From positions 19,694-37,939 of the forward strand of contig MFTL01000006.1 of assembly GCA_001786825.1 (NCBI GenBank): a stretch of 18,246 bases of DNA, written 5' to 3'. Origin of the DNA: Candidatus Nomurabacteria bacterium RIFCSPHIGHO2_01_FULL_39_9. GTDB taxonomy: Bacteria > Patescibacteriota > Minisyncoccia > Phycocordibacterales > DATEUR01. Shown here piece by piece: positions 3,001-17,732 of the stretch (position 1 is the first letter of the stretch; every line of letters begins with the position of its first letter). The position numbers and the translations under genes were made by a program. The notes below the pieces were generated by a model that had not been told where the DNA came from, made no database searches, and saw only the letters and a program-made list of their open reading frames with translations.

Positions 3001-3652
3001 TGAAATCGAAAAAAGGGCAGACGGGCCAGGCATATTCTGCTTACCTTCATTAGGTTGTAAAGAAACATATCTACAAGGTCAGATAATAAAGTTGCTCGCT
3101 TTTGAAAGAAATAATTTTAAATTTAAATTATGGGCGCAAAATGCAAGCGACTATAAATGTCTGACCGGAGCGCAATATAAACCAGAACCAAACGCCAACA
3201 ACACCTGCTTTGTCAGATTAAAATCTTCTTTAGATCTCCCGATCGACGCAGTCATTAAAGCCGTTTTTGAAAAACCAGCCCCGCCTCTGCCACCAGCTCC
3301 GCCGAAAGTAGCACCAGTAACGCCCAAGCCACCAGCGCCGCCTAAAAAAGCTCCGACACCACCAGTTGTTGAGGAGGAAGTAATAGCGCCGACTATTTTT
3401 GAAGAATTGATTCCAGAAATAAAACCACCGTTACCACCTCGAGAAATAGTTACGCCGCCCGTCGAGCCTTTGGGCGTATTAGTTGAATTACCAAAACAAC
3501 CAGCGCCAGAATTAACCGCTCGTGAAAGATTCCAAGCAGAAACTCGCAAAGTATTTATAAATCTTTGGAATTCTGTCAGATACACTTCTTGCCGATTATT
3601 TACTGGAGCAACTGCGGAAAAGTGCGATGCTCTTTTTCCGATCTTACCTTAA
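2..3652 (+). CDS. Large secreted delta-60-repeat (beta-propeller-like) protein, 5' partial
   Basis: The reading frame is open to the left edge and the visible N-terminus has no signal peptide, so the true start probably lies upstream; the first in-window ATG is at 8. About 1,216 residues are visible. Residues 1-840 are built from degenerate repeats of the type 'YVGGSF ... G ... W.P ... V.AI', typical of delta-60/WD-like beta-propeller proteins, with many VGG[SNT]F strands. Residues 850-960 look like an Ig-like or cell-surface beta domain. A following segment (about 985-1090) contains several cysteines that could form disulfides. A proline-rich linker (about 1095-1170, PPAPPK-like) precedes a short C-terminal segment with two cysteines. 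The composition (Gly, Asn, Thr, few Cys except near the end) fits an extracellular or cell-surface protein. Its function is unknown; adhesion or surface-layer roles are guesses. The 72-nt gap to the next gene contains a new promoter. Confidence 0.72.
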   Translation, partial: FNMVGPATGAGVLTNPDSGDVTNSWKINGGEVRASIPDGSGGYYVGGSFLVNLPDEEGTISNLIHIQADGAIDTRFRPSSVLTDGLINNIVLGQLNGQQVLYVGGLFSNPNLQGVFNLLVFNLDGSEVDISNERNSWPINSISTEVSALYFDTATNILYAGRLTDLDYYFANQTDPTPFLGALLAFDTSEQIRLLNWDTYIEGRINDIEKVNIPTEFDEEGRPITTVTSIVAGGRIQNLSSSQYGVSAVEALTAGFPPEESQLVNLVPILSDRSFAYPEFTFISGSAFEQAFIRDIELIASDYVAITGAFSQLKSERTLASVRNLGIFRLSTGEMIWNAGIGGVTSSKNSFQFEGETFYVDPIKKIHSIQQASNGILYFGGEFDSFLNNPTRKYGAAVTYNSDTLIPEGLSNWDPRTSGQINAFSSDRKVNANQIFVGGNFFIANGVTRNGLAELDQNGVVTTTTFPNLVEIFEGKGIQITRIIFDETSNILYVLGNFCIEGETICRLGAFRYNPNFGGFGTVNFNSFFSTNEFGRLSDMVLMNTSDGVSPNINKRLFVGGTFSTGEPLLFQNLIALDPETGVLDETMNFGITDDVTALSTDGSKLFVAAQTGRGGDKAEGKDKKFVFNLTPIVEAQVKPKPGIGNSYIKAFGSENPASNLLWTQEFLALDGVTKLLTTRIVSLKHDSNSLYFSGGFSVGAPYDFGSLGALNTSDGSYISTWKPFSTEFNGGVSAIETNDQAVFAAVQVVTDLGNETADLYAFSKAPEQANEFFVFNYKGHPLANYRESVLIKSLTSVPSTQKPDSSVLTVGGMYNVFDPIKQSLRPNLSFFDVSVRVPPPPASITIRVFDKNDREISNGSYTTSDQITARVQVVSLSVSDLSCFLNEGSNICEEDESFVLLPQGGEDKSISTFEVSRTLITKDGFPAYGPYILKVKNLEEDISSSDFTITFMPSEELFCQAIQEEDLGGGAVILPTVNIFVNVTGDGLVVGYPVNFDKNEIEKRADGPGIFCLPSLGCKETYLQGQIIKLLAFERNNFKFKLWAQNASDYKCLTGAQYKPEPNANNTCFVRLKSSLDLPIDAVIKAVFEKPAPPLPPAPPKVAPVTPKPPAPPKKAPTPPVVEEEVIAPTIFEELIPEIKPPLPPREIVTPPVEPLGVLVELPKQPAPELTARERFQAETRKVFINLWNSVRYTSCRLFTGATAEKCDALFPILP

Positions 3653-3724: not shown

Positions 3725-4372
3725 ATGACAGTTTTAGAAGCCCAAAAAAGAAAAGCTGGAGCCAAATTAGGCTCTTTAAGAAAAGAAGGTCAAATCCCGG
3801 CTGTTATTTATGGTGCCGGCAAAGAATCAACTCCAGTTTCAGTTTTAGGTACAGCTTTTATTAAAATTCATAAAGGTGGCGAAACAACGCCTATTTCGCT
3901 AAAAACTCCAGAAGGCGTGGTAGACGCAATGATTCAAGATATTGCCTATGATCCGATTACTTCAAGCCCGATCCATGTTGATTTCCTCGCAATTGATGTC
4001 AATAAAGAAATTGAAGCAAAAATACCGCTTGAATTTATCGGCGAAGCGCCGGCAACAAAAGGCGGCTTGGGCGCTTTGGTTAAAGTTATGCATGAAATTG
4101 AAGTTCTAGCTTTGCCGAAAAATCTGCCGCATCACATTGAAGTGCCGCTTGAAAAACTCGCTACTCTCGAAGACCACATTTTTGTCAGCGATTTGAAAAT
4201 ACCAGCTGGCGTGAAAGCAATCACCGCAGCCGATGAAGTCATCGCTTCAATTGCCGCAATTAAAGAAGAGGTTGAAGCTCCGGCCGGCCCAGTTGATCTT
4301 TCTACTATCGAAGTTGTAAAGAAAGGCAAGAAGGAAGAAGAGGGAGAAGGAGAAGTGGCGACGGCTGCTTAG
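3725..4372 (+). CDS. rplY: Large-subunit ribosomal protein bL25 (TL5/CTC form)
   Basis: Two-domain bL25 of the long CTC/TL5 type, 215 residues. The N-terminal 5S-rRNA-binding domain (about 1-90) contains the family signatures RKAGAKLGSLRKEGQIPAVIYG and PITSSPIHVDFLAI. The C-terminal beta-rich TL5 domain (about 95-185) includes KIPLEFIGEAPATKGGLG and LPHHIEVPLEKL. It ends in an acidic/lysine tail (about 195-215). The protein binds 5S rRNA in the 50S central protuberance. The ATG at 3725 fits the family N-terminus and the leaderless promoter. It probably starts the transcription unit that continues through the transglycosylase, bL31 and RF1, because the next gap is only 11 nt. Confidence 0.95.
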   Translation: MTVLEAQKRKAGAKLGSLRKEGQIPAVIYGAGKESTPVSVLGTAFIKIHKGGETTPISLKTPEGVVDAMIQDIAYDPITSSPIHVDFLAIDVNKEIEAKIPLEFIGEAPATKGGLGALVKVMHEIEVLALPKNLPHHIEVPLEKLATLEDHIFVSDLKIPAGVKAITAADEVIASIAAIKEEVEAPAGPVDLSTIEVVKKGKKEEEGEGEVATAA

Positions 4373-12613: not shown

Positions 12614-13378
12614 ATGTTAGAAAAATTTCTTATTGATATTGGTCTATCAGAGAAAGAGGCTAAAGTTTACTTAGCGCTTTTGGGTGTTGATAATTATTCA
12701 GTTGTTGAGCTTGCTAAAAAAACAGACATCAATCGAACAACACTTTATCCGATTCTTGAACGTCTCATAAAAGACAATTTAGTAACTGAAGTTAAAACTG
12801 GCAAAAAAGTTCATTATGCGGCCGAAGCCCCAGAACGACTTACCACTTTCATTCAAAATCAAAAAACAAAATTAGACGAACAATCAAAGCTCGTCCAAGA
12901 TGTTGTGCCTCAACTGAAAAGTCTGCATCGTGAAAGCGGCGAGCGACCAATTATTAAGTATTACGAGGGCAGGGAAGGTATTTTAAAATCTGTAGAAGAT
13001 TATTTCCAGTACCCGGATGAAAAAGGAGGGGTTGCCTACGTCATGTATCCCCGCGATCTCATAGAGGAAACGTTCAGCCCGCAAGAATTGAAAACGGCGG
13101 CGGCGGCAAGAATTAATAAAGGAGTTAAAAATATCGCTATTTATAGTTATTCTAAAAAGGAAATACCTTCTGATACAACAAGCGATCGTTTTCAAGTTGA
13201 TCAAAATGAATACCCAATAAAATCTGATATAAGTGTCTATGGTGATAATGTTCGTATTCACACGCTTGGTAAAAAACTTTCTAGTATTTATATAAAAAAT
13301 AGTGATTTTGCAGAAACACTGCGCACAATTTTTAAGCTCGCTCTTAATTGTTTAAAGAAAATAGAAGCAAAAAAGTAA
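12614..13378 (+). CDS. TrmB-family transcriptional regulator
   Basis: 254 residues. The N-terminal winged helix-turn-helix (about 1-75) is typical TrmB: LSEKEAKVYLALLGV, VVELAKKTDINRTTLYPILERLIKDNLV, then the wing TGKKVHYAAEAPE. A short helical linker (about 75-110) and a C-terminal effector domain (about 115-254, starting IIKYYEGREGILKSVEDYF) follow. TrmB proteins bind DNA as dimers and often sense sugars or metabolites. The effector and targets are unknown here. The gene is monocistronic and closed by a strong terminator. Confidence 0.88.
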   Translation: MLEKFLIDIGLSEKEAKVYLALLGVDNYSVVELAKKTDINRTTLYPILERLIKDNLVTEVKTGKKVHYAAEAPERLTTFIQNQKTKLDEQSKLVQDVVPQLKSLHRESGERPIIKYYEGREGILKSVEDYFQYPDEKGGVAYVMYPRDLIEETFSPQELKTAAAARINKGVKNIAIYSYSKKEIPSDTTSDRFQVDQNEYPIKSDISVYGDNVRIHTLGKKLSSIYIKNSDFAETLRTIFKLALNCLKKIEAKK

Positions 13379-13784: not shown

Positions 13785-13883
13785 CCCTTAAAAACTGTCT
13801 GAGTAAGTTTACATTTTAATACTTAAAATAGGCTTTAAATAAGGCTTTTTTGAGTAATTATCTAAAGAAAAAGTCAAAAGCAC

Positions 13884-13912
13884 TTGACAAAATTTTAGCT
13901 TTGTGCTAATCT
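13884..13912 (+). promoter_or_regulatory. Promoter of the ribozyme-punctuated array
   Basis: TTGACA (13884-13889), a 17-nt spacer, and an extended -10 TGC-TAATCT (hexamer 13907-13912). The predicted start is near 13919, just before GATCATTTAAAAC (13921), which faintly resembles the repeated leader motif of the array. It is the only strong plus-strand promoter before the four small genes. Confidence 0.72.
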
Positions 13913-13918
13913 CCCTCA

Positions 13919-14340
13919 TAGATCATTTAAAACTTATCAAGGTATTGTTTTGGAGGCAAAACCAATTAATAACAATTGGTGATGTCATCACCTCCAAATT
14001 AACAAAAAGGTTTTCTAGCCTCCAGAATAATGCCTTGATGAAAATAAAATGGGAAAAAATTAAGGAGGTTTTGATTGGTTCCTCCGGGACAGGGTCGCAC
14101 ACTGTTCATTTAATCCAACCAATTCTGGCTTTTCAGGTTTTAGCCAGTCCGCGTCTGATTGCAGGGAGACAATCAGAAAAAATGCTTTCGGTGGGACATT
14201 AGGCCCCGAAAGCCCGGTAATACGAGTGTGCCTATCATTCGTAAAACCTGTTCTCTCACATGGGCAATCCTTTCGGTTTACCGACTGGATTGCCCTCATT
14301 ATTCAGCTCATCAAGTAATTGGTGGTCTGATTGTGAAAAA
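13919..14340 (+). ncRNA. Structured RNA module 1
   Basis: The first domain is closed by a 21-bp helix (13936-13956 with 14019-14039) with no mismatch and three G-U pairs. It encloses TTGGAGG/CCTCCAA and the nested hairpins CCAATT/AATTGG and GGTGAT/ATCACC, which share two bases and so partly compete. Downstream are CTGGCT/AGCCAG, TCTGATTG/CAATCAGA, CTTTCGG/CCGAAAG and a long-range GCACACT/AGTGTGC pairing. The module ends in the two-hairpin element described separately. A frame of 99 codons (13903-14202) crosses it, but the continuous pairing argues for a functional RNA. No known RNA family is recognised. Confidence 0.7.
14262..14330 (+). ncRNA. Two-hairpin element, copy A
   Basis: Hairpin 1 pairs GGGCAATCC (14262-14270) with GGATTGCCC (14287-14295), with a small inner CGG/CCG stem. 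Hairpin 2 pairs 14303-14313 with 14320-14330 (10 of 11 pairs, including G-U). It precedes the leader motif at 14341. Copy B (14560-14636) has the same layout with compensatory changes. Confidence 0.75.
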
Positions 14341-14356
14341 GTTCTTTAAATAAAAA
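14341..14356 (+). promoter_or_regulatory. boxA-like leader motif, copy 1
   Basis: GTTCTTTAAATAAAAA. It resembles boxA of rRNA leaders (TGCTCTTTAACA) and of lambda nut sites. It opens RNA module 2. Confidence 0.65.
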
Positions 14357-14559
14357 TATTGGTCTTGGGAAGCTGTGGAACCCAGAGGTCGCACCTCTAA
14401 TTCAGCCTAGCTATCCCAGTTTAGCTAGTTCTCCAGTATTGATGTCAACGGTTATTGAAACTGCGTGTACTGTGCAGTAAACAATAATTCTTGTGGGGCG
14501 CCTGGATGTGGCAATCCGGGGGAAGAAGAACTGCTTTGCCAAAAGCAGAAACTGGTGTT

Positions 14560-14636
14560 GGGTAATCAACTACGCAAAACGTGATTGATTACCCTCTTTA
14601 TCCAGATCACCATGAGCTTGTCGAGTGGCGGTTTGG
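14560..14636 (+). ncRNA. Two-hairpin element, copy B
   Basis: Hairpin 1 pairs GGGTAATCA (14560-14568) with TGATTACCC (14586-14594), with an inner ACG/CGT stem. Hairpin 2 pairs 14602-14612 with 14626-14636. Relative to copy A, C-G becomes U-A and C-G becomes A-U in hairpin 1, and U-A becomes C-G at the base of hairpin 2. These compensatory changes support selection for the structure. Confidence 0.75.
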
Positions 14637-14646
14637 TAGAGAGAAA

Positions 14647-14662
14647 GTTCTTTAAATAAAAA
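14647..14662 (+). promoter_or_regulatory. boxA-like leader motif, copy 2
   Basis: GTTCTTTAAATAAAAA, identical to copy 1. It opens RNA module 3. Confidence 0.65.
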
Positions 14663-14983
14663 ATAATGTTCTGGGGCGGAAATTGGTATCAATCATTTGA
14701 TCCCAGCTTCCGCTCTGGAATAGAGCAATGATGATGGCCTGTTTTCATCCTTTAAGGCCAAAGGACGAGGCCGGTCAAGATTGCAGAGTCTCTGCAATCT
14801 TGACCTACCGGTGAGCGCAGCTCATCGGGATAGCGCCAAATCGACAAGACTTATTTCTGATAATTAGCTCGCGAAGCAATTAGAGGGAATAAGGCAACAA
14901 AAAGGATCTGGATTCTAGTATGCAATCCTGGAAAGCTGAAAGGCTTTTAAAAAAGGTTTCGCGACTGAGTATACTTATTTTTT
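14647..14983 (+). ncRNA. Structured RNA module 3
   Basis: Starts at a leader motif. A 13-bp helix (14669-14681 with 14708-14720, with G-U pairs) encloses ATCAA/TTGAT. A perfect 15-bp hairpin follows at 14773-14805 (GGTCAAGATTGCAGA, loop GTC). Smaller hairpins are TGAGC/GCTCA, TAATT-AGCT/AGC-AATTA and GGATT/AATCC. A micro-ORF of 21 codons (14666-14731, starting MFWGGNWY) overlaps the first helix; it may be translated but this is uncertain. The module lacks the two-hairpin element at its 3' end. Confidence 0.6.
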
Positions 14984-14998
14984 GTTCTTTTAAACATT
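14984..14998 (+). promoter_or_regulatory. boxA-like leader motif, copy 3
   Basis: GTTCTTTTAAACATT, a diverged copy 29 nt before the ATG at 15013. Its spacing supports that start. Confidence 0.55.
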
Positions 14999-15012
14999 TA
15001 AAATTTAAGAAA

Positions 15013-15480
15013 ATGGCTAGACTAATCGGAAGTGTTACCTGTAAAGAACTCATTTTAGCTTTTCCTGAAAAGTTTGGCAAACATGCTAAAAAATTCAGAA
15101 AAGAATTATGCGATGTCATTAGTAAGGAGGGATTTGGTTCATATGTGGAGATTAAGGGTAAATATGAGGCAGATTATATCCCCAAATATCGTTCCAAACA
15201 AACCTTATTAAAAAAAGCACAATGTGTAACGATTTCTGAAAGATACAAAGATGATTTTGAATGGATTAAGGTCTCCCTTTTCGATGACGGGCATATAGAA
15301 ATAGTTCATCCGGAACAAACTCTATCTGCCTTAGACAAGTCGAAAATTAAAACCTTAATCATACCTAAAGATAGGTATCGTGCGTACGTTATCAGAGACC
15401 GTGATCAGGAAAGAGATAGAATGCTGAAGTATCATGACCAGTTTCGCGTACGAGTGCTGAAGAATATCGTATCAAAATGA
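15013..15480 (+). CDS. Array gene 1, unknown function
   Basis: 155 residues starting MARLIGSVTC. An upstream in-frame ATG at 14920 would place coding across RNA hairpins and the leader motif, so 15013 is preferred; it lies 29 nt after the motif, as in array gene 3. The protein is basic and rich in Lys/Arg (AKKFRKEL, KYRSKQTLLKK, RDRDQERDRMLKYHDQFRVR), so it could bind nucleic acid, but no domain is recognised. It has no signal peptide or membrane segment. There is no Shine-Dalgarno. It is followed by a 158-nt spacer leading to the first hammerhead cleavage site. Confidence 0.72.
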   Translation: MARLIGSVTCKELILAFPEKFGKHAKKFRKELCDVISKEGFGSYVEIKGKYEADYIPKYRSKQTLLKKAQCVTISERYKDDFEWIKVSLFDDGHIEIVHPEQTLSALDKSKIKTLIIPKDRYRAYVIRDRDQERDRMLKYHDQFRVRVLKNIVSK

Positions 15481-15633
15481 GAACGGACCGGTTTCACACT
15501 CTGATAGATATCTTCAGAGTCGGTTGGCAACAGAAAGTACTTCAGTAGCACTGGGGGAAAAAGTGAATAAGGAGTTGGACACAACCTTAAAAAATAACAG
15601 TGGTCTATATAAGCGGTGAATTCAATTCACCGC
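15481..15633 (+). other. Hairpin-rich spacer after array gene 1
   Basis: No gene. Hairpins include ACTCTGA/TCAGAGT (about 15498-15519) within ACCG/CGGT, AAGG-a-GTTG/CAAC-CTT, and the 21-nt near-perfect palindrome 15613-15633 (GCGGTGAATT, one central C, AATTCACCGC). This last hairpin abuts the 5' strand of ribozyme stem III and would form the 3' end of the upstream cleavage product. Confidence 0.6.
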
Positions 15634-15698
15634 TCTGTCTCCGCCCAAGGCGGACTGATGAGACTTCCGTTCTTTATGAAACGGCAAGACGAAACAGA
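15634..15698 (+). ncRNA. Type III hammerhead ribozyme 1
   Basis: All core elements are in order. The 5' strand of stem III is TCTGT (15634-15638) with cleavage nucleotide C15639 (GUC). Stem I is TCCGCC-CAA-GGCGGA (15640-15654) and the conserved CTGATGA is at 15655-15661. Stem II is long (15662-15690, closed by G-C, containing CCGTT/AACGG with one A-A mismatch and one bulge). GAAA (15691-15694) and CAGA complete stem III. Predicted cleavage is between 15639 and 15640. It would leave the catalytic fold on the 5' end of the mRNA of array gene 2, with a 5'-hydroxyl. Confidence 0.93.
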
Positions 15699-15701
15699 AA
15701 T

Positions 15702-15717
15702 GTTCATTAAACAAAAA
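15702..15717 (+). promoter_or_regulatory. boxA-like leader motif, copy 4
   Basis: GTTCATTAAACAAAAA, starting 3 nt after hammerhead 1. The next ATG is 47 nt from its first base, further than in the other copies. Confidence 0.55.
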
Positions 15718-15748
15718 ATAAATACAAACAATATAAATCCTGAAACTC

Positions 15749-16162
15749 ATGAAAACAATCAAGACATTGATAATGCTTAAAACAGAATTCAGTAACATGT
15801 GGGAAGGTCCTAAGCCAGCCTCATTAACTTATGAAGCCGATTACAAAGGAAATGATACCGGCTACGTGGAGAATTTTGAGAAAAATCTGGTTGATGAAGT
15901 ATGCACGCAATGCGATTTCTGGGACTGTGTATTGGGCTATAAAGAAAGTTTTTCAATTCAAGTGAAAGTATTGGGAGATCAGGAAGAAAATAAAAAATAC
16001 GAAGACCATCTAACAAAACTTATCACCGATGAAATTGTGAAACGAGCCGGTAGAAGCCCTGAGTCGTCTTTCGAAGACGATATGAGTGATGAGAAAAAAA
16101 GAGAGATTGAAAGAGGCGTGCTGGAAGCGAAAATTAGATTTCCCAGATTGTTCATTAAATGA
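15749..16162 (+). CDS. Array gene 2, unknown function
   Basis: 137 residues from the first ATG; internal Met at 15773 or 15797 (MWEGPKPASLTYEADY) are alternative starts. It is acidic overall, with a small cysteine cluster CTQCDFWDC that might bind metal, then beta-like ESFSIQVKVL and a charged helical C-terminus (about 95-137). No domain is recognised. There is no Shine-Dalgarno. Its mRNA would begin with the hammerhead 1 catalytic fold. The gene ends 84 nt before the hammerhead 2 cleavage site. Confidence 0.7.
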   Translation: MKTIKTLIMLKTEFSNMWEGPKPASLTYEADYKGNDTGYVENFEKNLVDEVCTQCDFWDCVLGYKESFSIQVKVLGDQEENKKYEDHLTKLITDEIVKRAGRSPESSFEDDMSDEKKREIERGVLEAKIRFPRLFIK

Positions 16163-16239
16163 CTTTGTCCCCGTTTGGTCACGATCAAATGGCGAGCCTA
16201 AGAGGAAGCAGAGCCTCTCGGTGAAATTAATTTTCACCG

Positions 16240-16292
16240 TTCTGTCGCAAAGTGAATGCTTTGCCTGATGAGTCCACAAGGACGAAACAGAA
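16240..16292 (+). ncRNA. Type III hammerhead ribozyme 2
   Basis: A textbook hammerhead. Stem III is TTCTGT (16240-16245) with ACAGAA (16287-16292), with cleavage nucleotide C16246 (GUC). Stem I is GCAAAG/CTTTGC (16247-16252 with 16259-16264, loop TGAATG) and CTGATGA is at 16265-16271. Stem II is GTCC-ACAA-GGAC (16272-16283), followed by GAAA (16284-16287). Predicted cleavage is between 16246 and 16247. A hairpin CGGTGAAA/TTTCACCG (16219-16239) directly abuts the 5' strand, as in hammerhead 1. Confidence 0.96.
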
Positions 16293-16295
16293 AAT

Positions 16296-16310
16296 GTTCT
16301 TTAAATTTTA
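16296..16310 (+). promoter_or_regulatory. boxA-like leader motif, copy 5
   Basis: GTTCTTTAAATTTTA, starting 4 nt after hammerhead 2 and 29 nt before the ATG at 16325. Confidence 0.6.
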
Positions 16311-16324
16311 AAATATAAAACGCT

Positions 16325-17032
16325 ATGGAAAAAAACTATGTGACCCAAAAAATTTTGGGACTTTCCTATTTAGAAATCCTTTTCCTCAAGCAAATGGAGG
16401 AATTGGAAAAATTATCATTTTCGCAAAAAATTCTTGACACACTAATCGCCAAAAAAGATGTTGTTCTGAAAGCCGTAAGTAATAAACCTTTACAAGAAGG
16501 CGTAGTACCATTTTTACCAGCAATTCCAGTCAAAATGATGGACAGCACTGGCCAGTTGAAATACCATAATGGCTGGAGATTTGCAGACAGTATGGAAATT
16601 TATGCTCAATTTAACGGCTTTCTTTATAATGAAGAAAGAATGTGGAATTTGGTGAATGCAGCAGAACCATATTTTTTGGTTAATGTCAGCGTTTGTCCGC
16701 TTGAAGAAGTTCCGGCTCCAGCACAAGGGAAATCTCAAAATGATATCGGATATGTTGCCCGAGAATTTTTCAAAAACAAAGGGCTGCACACGCTTAATCA
16801 TGTTGAGGCATTATCCGTTGCTTGTCACAGTAAATTAATGCCGGCAGACAAAAATCTTTGCGCTTTCAGTTGTGATTGGGACGGCTTTGAATTCGCGGCA
16901 GTTTATCATAGTTTTGATGCAAGAGGGAATGGTCTTTGTAACACCTCCTTTTCAATTCAAAACGGATTTTTGAAAAAACGCGCTCGCAATCACAAAGATA
17001 TTCTCGTCCCAGTTTGCGAAAAAAGAGTTTAA
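16325..17032 (+). CDS. Array gene 3, unknown function
   Basis: 235 residues starting MEKNYVTQKILGLSYLEILFLKQMEEL. The N-terminal 60 residues are helical. A mixed alpha/beta domain follows, with KYHNGWRFADSMEIYAQFNGF, PYFLVNVSVCPLEEV, NDIGYVAREFF and CAFSCDWDGFEFAAVYHSFDARG. Six cysteines are scattered through the second half. No domain is recognised. The segment NDIGYVARE resembles VNIGYIPRE in array gene 4, a possible distant relationship. Start choice is supported by spacing from the leader motif. It is the longest product of the array. Cytoplasmic location is inferred, as no signal peptide is seen. Confidence 0.75.
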   Translation: MEKNYVTQKILGLSYLEILFLKQMEELEKLSFSQKILDTLIAKKDVVLKAVSNKPLQEGVVPFLPAIPVKMMDSTGQLKYHNGWRFADSMEIYAQFNGFLYNEERMWNLVNAAEPYFLVNVSVCPLEEVPAPAQGKSQNDIGYVAREFFKNKGLHTLNHVEALSVACHSKLMPADKNLCAFSCDWDGFEFAAVYHSFDARGNGLCNTSFSIQNGFLKKRARNHKDILVPVCEKRV

Positions 17033-17193
17033 CTGCTAAATTTTAGCTAGGTTTTAGAGTAGGCGTCACCAGTCGCCGCACGCACACCAACGCGAACTGG
17101 AAGTGCATACATTCTGCACGAGCGCTGGACGACCGCTTGTCGTCCTAACTTTTGAGATCAGAAATAAAAGTTTGTGGTTTCAAAATGAAATTT
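17033..17193 (+). other. Structured spacer between array genes 3 and 4
   Basis: No gene. It is more GC-rich than its surroundings in 17061-17146. Helices visible are CCAG-u-CGC (17069-17076) with GCGCTGG (17122-17128), GTGCA/TGCAC (17103-17107 with 17115-17119), CGC/GCG near 17081-17093, and GGACGAC/GTCGTCC (17127-17133 with 17139-17145). It holds no hammerhead core. It occupies the position filled by ribozymes upstream of array genes 2 and 3. The last 45 nt are AT-rich and unstructured. Confidence 0.5.
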
Positions 17194-17209
17194 GTTCTTT
17201 AAATAAAAA
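17194..17209 (+). promoter_or_regulatory. boxA-like leader motif, copy 6
   Basis: GTTCTTTAAATAAAAA, identical to copies 1 and 2, 31 nt before the ATG at 17225. Confidence 0.65.
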
Positions 17210-17224
17210 TTAAAATACATCAAA

Positions 17225-17632
17225 ATGCAACAAAAAACCATAGACCTCCAACCGGTGTTTGTCATGAACAACCACTATTTGGTTAAAAATTTACAGGAAT
17301 GCTTTAACAAACTAAACACTGTTTTACAAAACAAAACTGGAGTTCGTCATCAGCCGCTTTTTGCAAAAGAAGAAAATGGGGTTGTAAATATCGGATACAT
17401 ACCGCGCGAAAAGGGTACCTGTCCATTCTTCTCTAATGAAAAATTTGATGATACATGGGAAACCCTTGAGAGAATTTGTCTTGCTCAATTTGTAATTTTT
17501 GAAGGATGCAAACATTATGATTGTTATACTGAGGTGCCGATGGCAGGCGCTCCAGAAGAAGGTGATGATGCATTTTTTAAGTTTACGCTTGATGATACAG
17601 GGTATACATATAAACTTTGGACAAAAAAGTGA
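17225..17632 (+). CDS. Array gene 4, unknown function
   Basis: 135 residues starting MQQKTIDLQPVFVMNNHYLVKNLQECF. It has an N-terminal helical region, then GVVNIGYIPREKGTCPFFSNEKFDDTWETLERICLAQFVIFEGC, and ends in an acidic beta-like segment (DDAFFKFTLDDTGYTYKLWTKK). Five or six cysteines are present (CPFF, ICLAQ, GCKHYDCY). No domain, signal peptide or membrane helix is recognised. It is the last gene before the array terminator. Confidence 0.72.
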   Translation: MQQKTIDLQPVFVMNNHYLVKNLQECFNKLNTVLQNKTGVRHQPLFAKEENGVVNIGYIPREKGTCPFFSNEKFDDTWETLERICLAQFVIFEGCKHYDCYTEVPMAGAPEEGDDAFFKFTLDDTGYTYKLWTKK

Positions 17633-17653
17633 TTACCAGCGAACTTATTACAG

Positions 17654-17696
17654 AAGCCAGTTTTACTAAATATCTAGTAAAACTGGCTTTTTTATT
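17654..17696 (+). terminator. Terminator of the array
   Basis: A perfect 15-bp stem, AAGCCAGTTTTACTA (17654-17668) with TAGTAAAACTGGCTT (17675-17689), loop AATATC, followed by TTTTTATTTT. It closes the array transcript. Confidence 0.93.
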
Positions 17697-17732
17697 TTAG
17701 AAATAGTGCTAAAAGACCATAATTATAGTCTC

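Follow-up and report, generated by a model that had tools for sequence, protein, structure and literature searches.

Introduction

To our knowledge, the natural roles of bacterial hammerhead ribozymes are poorly known. The closest described systems are hammerhead clusters that flank genes in prophages, for which processing of long transcripts was suggested and of which three tested arrangements self-cleaved in vitro, according to the portion of the 2011 report by Perreault et al. on which we draw (PMC3088659). Here we examine an array of structured RNAs, small genes and predicted ribozymes in an 18,246-nucleotide (nt) stretch of DNA, called the window below, from contig MFTL01000006.1 (positions 19,694 to 37,939) of Candidatus Nomurabacteria bacterium RIFCSPHIGHO2_01_FULL_39_9, a member of the Patescibacteria. 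The host genome (G000) is a 408 kb metagenome-assembled genome (MAG), 62% complete. The original prediction for this locus stated that no known system of such a composition came to mind; this missed a precedent from 2011, prophage hammerheads that flank single genes on transcripts presumed to be long, as far as the same portion of that report goes (PMC3088659).

As in those clusters, so far as they are described there (PMC3088659), single genes or small groups of genes lie between successive hammerheads on presumed polycistronic RNAs and the identities of the genes vary; several same-strand hammerheads flanking variable genes are what we found in the Patescibacteria arrays. Unlike the prophage clusters of other bacteria, as that portion presents them, the Patescibacteria loci are chromosomal, have a TrmB-family regulator gene as a neighbour, show the order hairpin, ribozyme and leader box, and include a second hairpin element, R2, and cassettes made of RNA only. 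We regard the system as related to the known prophage clusters, and it would possibly be categorically new if R2 were a ribozyme or if the cassettes moved as units. In the open-licence literature we found no paper on hammerheads in Patescibacteria among the matches listed, which does not by itself prove novelty, and none on chromosomal, TrmB-linked hammerhead arrays with a boxA-like leader and R2.

A second comparison is with antitermination in ribosomal RNA (rRNA) operons (PMC5725501 and PMC10250234, in the parts considered here). As there, the array has a box, here a boxA-like one, close to the promoter and further ones ahead of later units; it includes RNA that is structured and untranslated, and its transcript would be processed into pieces. 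Unlike rRNA operons, the units of the array are accessory genes and unknown RNAs, its boxA is putative, and its borders carry hammerheads instead of the leader-trailer helices cut by RNase III that these sources describe in part. The array hammerheads share the core, stems and cleavage triplet of Hammerhead_3 (RF00008); they differ from it in a nearly fixed stem III core (CUGU/ACAG), in a hairpin that usually abuts them and in a word resembling boxA that follows at 3-14 nt, a spacing imposed by our scan. Integron arrays are likewise built of small-gene cassettes that vary and share a recurrent border element, and their attC-like core is GTTRRRY. The array resembles them in the variable cassettes and the recurrent border, but its border is a putative RNA processing element plus a box, and GTTCTTTAAA is without the attC-like core.

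Organization of the array

The array occupies positions 13884-17691 of the window, all on the + strand, and consists of a promoter, three folded RNA modules, four open reading frames (ORFs) and a terminator. We consider it fairly probable, judging from these and the comparative features below, that it is an antiterminated cassette operon, cut at the borders of its units, of a type recurring in Patescibacteria. The features are as follows, R1 being our hammerhead-plus-box model.

13884-13912, +, promoter (TTGACA, 17 nt spacing, TGn-TAATCT), read from the sequence
13921-13933, +, degenerate boxA-like leader GATCATTTAAAAC, read from the sequence
13934-14261, +, RNA module 1, with a long closed helix and further domains (13915-14360 folds with z -7.2)
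14262-14340, +, 3' hairpin and R2, junction 1 (fold z -6.2; R2 model)
14341-14350, +, putative boxA GTTCTTTAAA (motif scan)
14351-14559, +, RNA module 2 (fold of 14341-14665, z -4.3)
14560-14646, +, 3' hairpin and R2, junction 2 (fold z -5.6; R2 model)
14647-14656, +, putative boxA GTTCTTTAAA (motif scan)
14657-14980, +, RNA module 3 (fold of 14647-15012, z -7.6)
14946-14975, +, candidate internal promoter ahead of gene 1 (TTTAAA or TTAAAA, then TATACT; 9 of 12 consensus letters)
14984-14995, +, degenerate boxA-like GTTCTTTTAAAC before gene 1, read from the sequence
15013-15480, +, gene 1, 155 amino acids (aa), an orphan (its own cluster alone among 5.8 billion proteins)
15612-15700, +, 3' hairpin (15612-15634) and type III hammerhead 1 (RF00008; 56 bits, E 1e-11 with R1, which was built partly on this copy)
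15702-15711, +, putative boxA variant GTTCATTAAA, read from the sequence
15749-16162, +, gene 2, 137 aa (its own cluster and three relatives at 59-64% identity among 5.8 billion proteins)
16219-16293, +, 3' hairpin (16219-16239) and type III hammerhead 2 (RF00008; 80 bits with R1, likewise built partly on this copy)
16296-16305, +, putative boxA GTTCTTTAAA (motif scan)
16325-17032, +, gene 3, 235 aa (its own cluster and one relative at 55% among 5.8 billion proteins)
17127-17190, +, 3' hairpin (17127-17145) and a weaker R2 before gene 4 (33.8 bits, E 1.1e-4 with the R2 model, from whose building this copy was left out)
17194-17203, +, putative boxA GTTCTTTAAA (motif scan)
17225-17632, +, gene 4, 135 aa (without a match to Pfam or PHROG families)
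17652-17691, +, intrinsic terminator, a 17-pair stem with a T tail
12614-13378, +, TrmB-family regulator gene upstream of the array (PF01978, E 2.5e-12)

The original prediction described a promoter-to-terminator array with three structured RNA modules and four unknown genes, and the folding, the family searches and the 17-pair terminator bear this out. None of 100 shuffles of each module folded as well as the native sequence, although the stretches folded take in adjoining junction elements. Because the longest complete + strand ORF of module 1 has 85 aa, this module is not free of ORFs; the longest in modules 2 and 3 have 39 and 28 aa. A search of positions 13880-17700 against 4227 Rfam families (E up to 10) gave, apart from hammerhead, weak matches far below the gathering scores.

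Self-cleaving RNAs had been proposed as the cutters of the transcript. Type III hammerheads stand at two of the six internal junctions, which agrees with the proposal, but three junctions carry R2 and one, between module 3 and gene 1, showed neither in the R1 and R2 model searches. The accompanying claim that structured elements precede most of the leader motifs stands, and what had been taken for another fold is the third, weaker R2. Each unit had also been said to begin with the same motif. In 13884-17696 the + strand holds six copies of the word GTTC[A/T]TTAAA and the - strand none, compared to a mean of 0.03 (maximum two) in 2000 order-1 Markov sequences of the same composition; five copies mark unit starts (14341, 14647, 15702, 16296 and 17194) and the sixth lies in the 3' end of gene 2. 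Two further unit starts have degenerate forms, GATCATTTAAAAC and GTTCTTTTAAAC.

The "one strong promoter" of the prediction has a perfect -35 element but a poor -10 element (TAATCT with TGn), and our consensus promoter scan did not list the site. Because the scan did list the internal site at 14946-14975, whose 3' end lies 8 nt ahead of the gene 1 box, a single promoter for the whole array is not certain. A second promoter for genes 1-4 is possible since this site is placed like those of promoter-proximal boxes, though the 20 sites found in the region, compared to 15.7 expected, are near chance frequency. In a database of 44 loci, the sequence around the main promoter resembles the array starts of L082 (E 5.8e-6) and L056 (8e-4).

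Hammerheads across Patescibacteria

The two hammerheads of the window, at 15633-15700 and 16240-16293, match RF00008 over 15632-15700 and 16239-16293 with E values of 0.0028 and 1.2e-6 and fit type III, with a CUGANGA...GAAA core, three stems, an NUH triplet and an open stem III. Cleavage is predicted at 15639/15640 and 16246/16247. Each has a perfect hairpin directly 5' and the box 1-2 nt 3', and UCUGUC/GAAACAGA is common to both.

We scanned 84,980 species for a hammerhead core followed within 3-14 nt by GYTCWTTRAA and obtained 44 stretches, 21 of which are hammerheads by eye: 16 from Patescibacteria lineages, four from "uncultured bacterium" and one from a Phycisphaerales bin. The last (L053, bin NORP244) is likely the result of mis-binning because the stretch is identical to one on a Wolfebacteria contig (L068, bin NORP124). 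Nearly all of the 21 have a hairpin just 5' of the cleavage strand, where L064 has R2 instead. The other 23 stretches look by eye like chance matches, and 22 of them lie outside Patescibacteria. Viral contigs gave four matches to the pattern, none a hammerhead by eye.

The hammerheads covary in stems I and II. In alignment A1 (36 hammerheads, 29 taken by the parser and eight by coordinates, with the duplicate L053 excluded), 93.9% of the pair cells of these stems are paired, compared to 72.2% after shuffling and at most 48% after sliding; in A2 (69 rows, fitted to the model) the figures are 93.0% of cells and 70.2% in shuffles. A hairpin scoring at least 7, on a loose score, stands just 5' of 64% of the hammerheads and of 28.5% of random positions. 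At E 0.01, model R1, built from A1, had matches in 88 of the 397 order genomes, among them the window's own genome and several that supplied model sequences, and copy numbers per genome are to be read as "at least". It matched 40 of 379 genomes in an even sample of the phylum at E 0.001, and none of 22 genomes outside Patescibacteria, each chosen for holding a chance match to the scan pattern (the mis-binned genome, the 23rd, is not counted).

We surveyed 21 loci, 20 fetched plus the window, which had been chosen for several hammerhead matches. R1 found 69 hammerheads in them, on a single strand at each locus. Genome-wide figures on strand and TrmB use 150 listed R1 places in 81 of the 88 genomes; all 78 R1-R1 pairs within 3 kb share their strand, among the matches listed. 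The internal units between hammerheads (n = 46) have a median length of 554 nt. A sense ORF covers at least half of the unit in 29 of them and an antisense ORF in four, and three units without a sense ORF of 30 aa look like RNA cassettes. The order hairpin, hammerhead and box thus recurs in many Patescibacteria, on one strand and mostly between ORFs. This comparison supports the earlier picture of one array with motif-marked units and ribozymes at the unit borders, and the search of related genomes which the original prediction had proposed, for the motif beside hammerheads and for gene content, found that the architecture recurs in Patescibacteria while the content of the cassettes varies. 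The anatomy of the array and its conservation are solid, and the covariation, the strand coherence and the association of hammerhead, R2, box and TrmB are likewise observed.

The R2 element

R2 is an apparently undescribed RNA element, a second long hairpin behind a first hairpin, found at the junctions beginning at 14262, 14560 and 17127. In A4, an alignment by eye of nine copies from four loci, 96.7% of cells are paired, compared to 79.6% after shuffling. One U-G pair is present in 9 of 9 rows of A4 and in 25 of 34 rows of a larger set; in the R2 alignment A5 the rows were fitted to the model itself, and its pair counts are biased towards that model.

The R2 model matched 85 places in 45 of the 397 order genomes at E 0.001. 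It gave 35 matches in 364 kb from 37 loci, a set free of controls and made up mostly of array loci. The 28 best of these 35, nine of them model copies, are all on the hammerhead strand, and among the last seven a single match (E 0.75) is off it. There was no match in 167 kb from 22 loci outside Patescibacteria, a sample of loci only, with no whole-genome control. Among the matches listed, 29 R2 places have R1 within 4 kb and all 29 share its strand, and 20 genomes hold both elements, compared to 9 expected; 31 of 33 R2-R2 neighbours are also on the same strand. From the shared strand, the proximity and the co-occurrence we conclude that the hammerhead and R2 take the same kind of place in the arrays. 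At L064 (4120-4247) both border elements stand in tandem at one junction, with R2 directly 5' of a hammerhead and box.

The hairpins at the junctions could instead be terminators or attenuators, in that the 3' hairpin and the U-rich arm of R2 would stop any polymerase without the boxA complex and the ribozymes would just trim 3' ends. R2 often starts with the U-rich CUUUAUU directly behind a strong hairpin, and the lambda N antitermination complex, in the part of the source used here, withstands both Rho-dependent and intrinsic terminators (PMC10250234), which would fit such a design. However, the U run is short and within R2 it is base-paired, the hammerhead junctions of the window are without a U run, and R2 covaries along its whole 17-pair stem, more than a terminator needs. 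We think this explanation unlikely and continue to favour borders that are cut in an antiterminated operon.

The leader box

The original prediction left the leader motif unnamed. Most likely, from its sequence, it is boxA, the NusB/S10 antitermination site of rRNA leaders. The published boxA consensus is GYTCTTTAANA in the part of the source used here (PMC5725501). Against it, four window boxes read GTTCTTTAAAT (10 of 11 positions) and the fifth GTTCATTAAAC, and the boxes of two other loci in the genome, L001 and L008, GTTCTTTAAAA, match in full. The organism's own 16S leader holds TTTCTTTGACAATTGAA about 100 nt ahead of the gene, where the box reads TTTCTTTGACAATTG; a 15 nt part of it, TCTTTGACAATTGAA, recurs behind a hammerhead in L135. 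A word related to GTTCATTAAA, GTTCATTGAA, stands behind hammerheads in L070, L075 and L090, and the degenerate leader GATCATTTAAAAC resembles by eye GTTCATTTAAAAC, a sequence that L068 has behind a promoter-like site. At three other loci of this genome a box, by eye, follows closely on a promoter-like site. Of 31 genomes of the order, 28 have NusB.

With up to two mismatches allowed, a box was found within 24 nt behind the ribozyme core in 40 of 65 hammerheads, compared to 2.7% of control stretches. This is an underestimate, because four of the 69 hammerheads, whose examined segment showed no GAAAC or GAAAT, were dropped and for some of the 65 a later GAAAC served as the starting point. The count has also to be weighed against the fact that R1 was built largely on copies from a scan requiring the box. 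A stricter count gives 25 of 69.

The box might be a motif shared by 5' untranslated regions or linked to promoters, and not boxA, with several units having promoters of their own. It lies 17-48 nt from the start codon in the four window genes and in L008, the promoter-like site before gene 1 is 8 nt ahead of its box, and elsewhere in the genome boxes follow promoter-like sites, being 13-15 nt behind a -10-like hexamer, by eye, at L001, L007 and L008. In opposition to this, the non-coding modules are also preceded by a box, the box lies close behind ribozyme cores and resembles an rRNA leader element, and the scan lists no + strand site just ahead of the other boxes. We find this explanation improbable, and boxA remains our reading of the motif.

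Some further observations concern single boxes. At L008 (from 1501; G000:C16:7847), a promoter-like site and GTTCTTTAAAA stand behind a tRNA gene, and the leader AATAAATACAAACAA..CTGAAACTCATGAAAA closely resembles that of array gene 2. At L007 (G000:C12:8608, minus strand), a promoter-like site and GTTCTTTAAAC precede a gene resembling, by eye, an S1-domain RNA-binding protein. About 4.6 kb before the window, at L001 1501-2115 (G000:C6:15048 onward), there is a second large RNA unit near the array, with a promoter-like site, the box GTTCTTTAAAA, a structured RNA of about 600 nt (z -8.7, 20 shuffles; no Rfam family matched at the RNA) and a terminator-like hairpin. Units in L068 (minus strand, about 1610-220) and L089 (3746-3800) share a leader after the box, GGCTTTAA..AGGTGTGCCAT.GAACACCAG, before the start codon, by eye a further conserved element. 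Matches to GTTCTTTAAA on contigs C7, C19 and C20 were taken as chance because they lie in what appears by eye to be coding or antisense sequence. Behind the motif on C7 (L006, minus strand), there is a short regular repeat in which GGTTTTCTT and TGGCTCGCTT alternate with about eight variable bases between them.

Proposed expression of the array

A single transcript, its cleavage in the cell, binding of Nus factors, regulation by TrmB and a benefit of the design are what we infer from these features. Ribozymes beside an rRNA-like signal suggest long transcripts that are kept going and then cut into pieces. In the antiterminated cassette operon that we propose, the main promoter probably answers to the TrmB-family regulator. 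RNA polymerase would encounter boxA soon after initiation and once more at every cassette, and would load a NusB/S10 antitermination complex as on rRNA, so that several kb of weakly translated RNA and small genes could be transcribed despite Rho and internal hairpins. The transcript would then be cut between cassettes, by a hammerhead at some junctions and at others probably via the R2 hairpin, by RNase III-like cleavage or as a new ribozyme. A released RNA would have a hammerhead or R2 remnant and then boxA at its 5' end and a stable hairpin at its 3' end, and each gene or RNA could in this way have its own stability and level. More tentatively, and as less likely than not, we suggest a distinct patescibacterial mode of expression, in which TrmB controls arrays that are antiterminated as rRNA is, every protein gene or structured RNA is set free on its own at a hammerhead or R2 border, the two being interchangeable, R2 is a new RNA that cleaves itself or recruits a nuclease, and cassettes are mobile, as whole units, between arrays and species.

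Several points weigh against this operon. The -10 element of the main promoter is weak, and the site at 14946-14975 may give genes 1-4 a separate promoter. The window hammerheads score 43.3 and 31.3 bits, under the Rfam gathering threshold of 48.5 bits, and a recognisable box is missing at some array hammerheads. A box-like word was found in only 13 of 29 rRNA leaders of relatives, compared to 20% of control stretches, and a search of the window's own MAG, which is 62% complete, did not find NusB. Because 17 of the 46 internal units lack an ORF that takes up half of their length, hammerheads do not solely separate genes. Finally, 16 of 35 hammerhead clusters are without a TrmB gene within 2.6 kb, some of them on contigs that end nearby.

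The cutting itself could also serve the making of circular RNAs, as in viroid-like RNAs, if the 3' end of an excised unit paired with its own 5' hammerhead core and was ligated. Such self-pairing would be allowed by a stem III that is nearly identical in every unit: its core is close to invariant in A2 (CG 64/68, UA 60/68, GC 64/67 and UA 68/68), while stem I varies freely, and both window hammerheads have UCUGUC/GAAACAGA. However, shared descent, a constraint of activity or model bias would fit this invariance too, most junctions of the window are not hammerheads, and no circular or spliced products were detected in the cases of Perreault et al., in the portion of that report used here (PMC3088659). 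We regard circle formation as quite improbable beside the cassette operon.

Hammerheads in 88 of 397 genomes of one order, in a recurrent slot with an antitermination-like signal, often a regulator nearby and an interchangeable R2, make a role in operon processing directly testable. The arrays also give access to how genes are regulated in a very large group of bacteria, most of them uncultured, and yield R2 and many unknown small proteins and RNAs.

The TrmB neighbour and flanking genes

The TrmB gene of the window has 51% identical counterparts upstream of the L056 and L082 arrays and one of 48% in L090. A tblastn search of the four window genes against the 44 loci gave no relative at E below 0.5. 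Since the regulator is conserved at L056 and L082 while the four genes have no relatives there, the arrays appear to have a conserved frame and variable cassettes. Of 35 hammerhead clusters among the matches listed, 19 have a TrmB gene no more than 2.6 kb away, compared to 0.9 expected, in 22 genomes hand-picked mostly for clusters and with genome sizes rounded; the window's own TrmB gene is 2,998 bp from the nearest hammerhead and thus outside the 19.

We hand-picked 85 flanking proteins from 196 ORFs at 17 of the 21 loci. TrmB is their commonest Pfam family (15 proteins) and the remaining families are largely cellular, both among the matches listed (25 of 92 families). Two match phage-integrase families, and PHROG gave two weak portal-protein matches and a single, likewise weak, head-maturation-protease match. 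An origin as a prophage or satellite region, with known prophage-type hammerhead clusters on mobile elements, would agree with these few matches and with the gene-flanking clusters known from prophages, in the portion of the source used (PMC3088659), but is very unlikely, because the flanks are mainly TrmB and cellular families among the matches listed, none of the four viral-contig matches is a hammerhead by eye and the genes around the window array look chromosomal by eye.

Cassette proteins

Genes 1-4 matched no Pfam or PHROG family at 0.1, except for one PHROG match of gene 1 (function unknown, E 0.068). The relatives of gene 2 are unnamed or annotated "hypothetical protein", and the gene was not found in any other genome of the order sample (397 searched). 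For gene 3, no second genome with a homologue was found among 98 searched, and the viral-contig search gave no relative. AlphaFold models were too poor for structure search, with a predicted local distance difference test (pLDDT) score of 35 for gene 3 and 42 for gene 4.

The 95 ORFs that lie within arrays or directly 3' of them include eight pairs of homologous proteins, with E no higher than 3e-4, that connect arrays from different genomes; some homologous cassettes thus recur from one array to another. Few Pfam matches, to 11 families, were found for 54 cassette proteins, the response regulator receiver being commonest (3); PADLOC gave three weak single matches among the 54, and the PHROG matches of cassette proteins are largely to transcriptional regulators. 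The first units of L056 (about 4004-4075) and L082 (about 3024-3083) hold, by eye, tiny ORFs ending in ..EALEAMRG and ..EWLAWLRGE, possibly related micropeptides.

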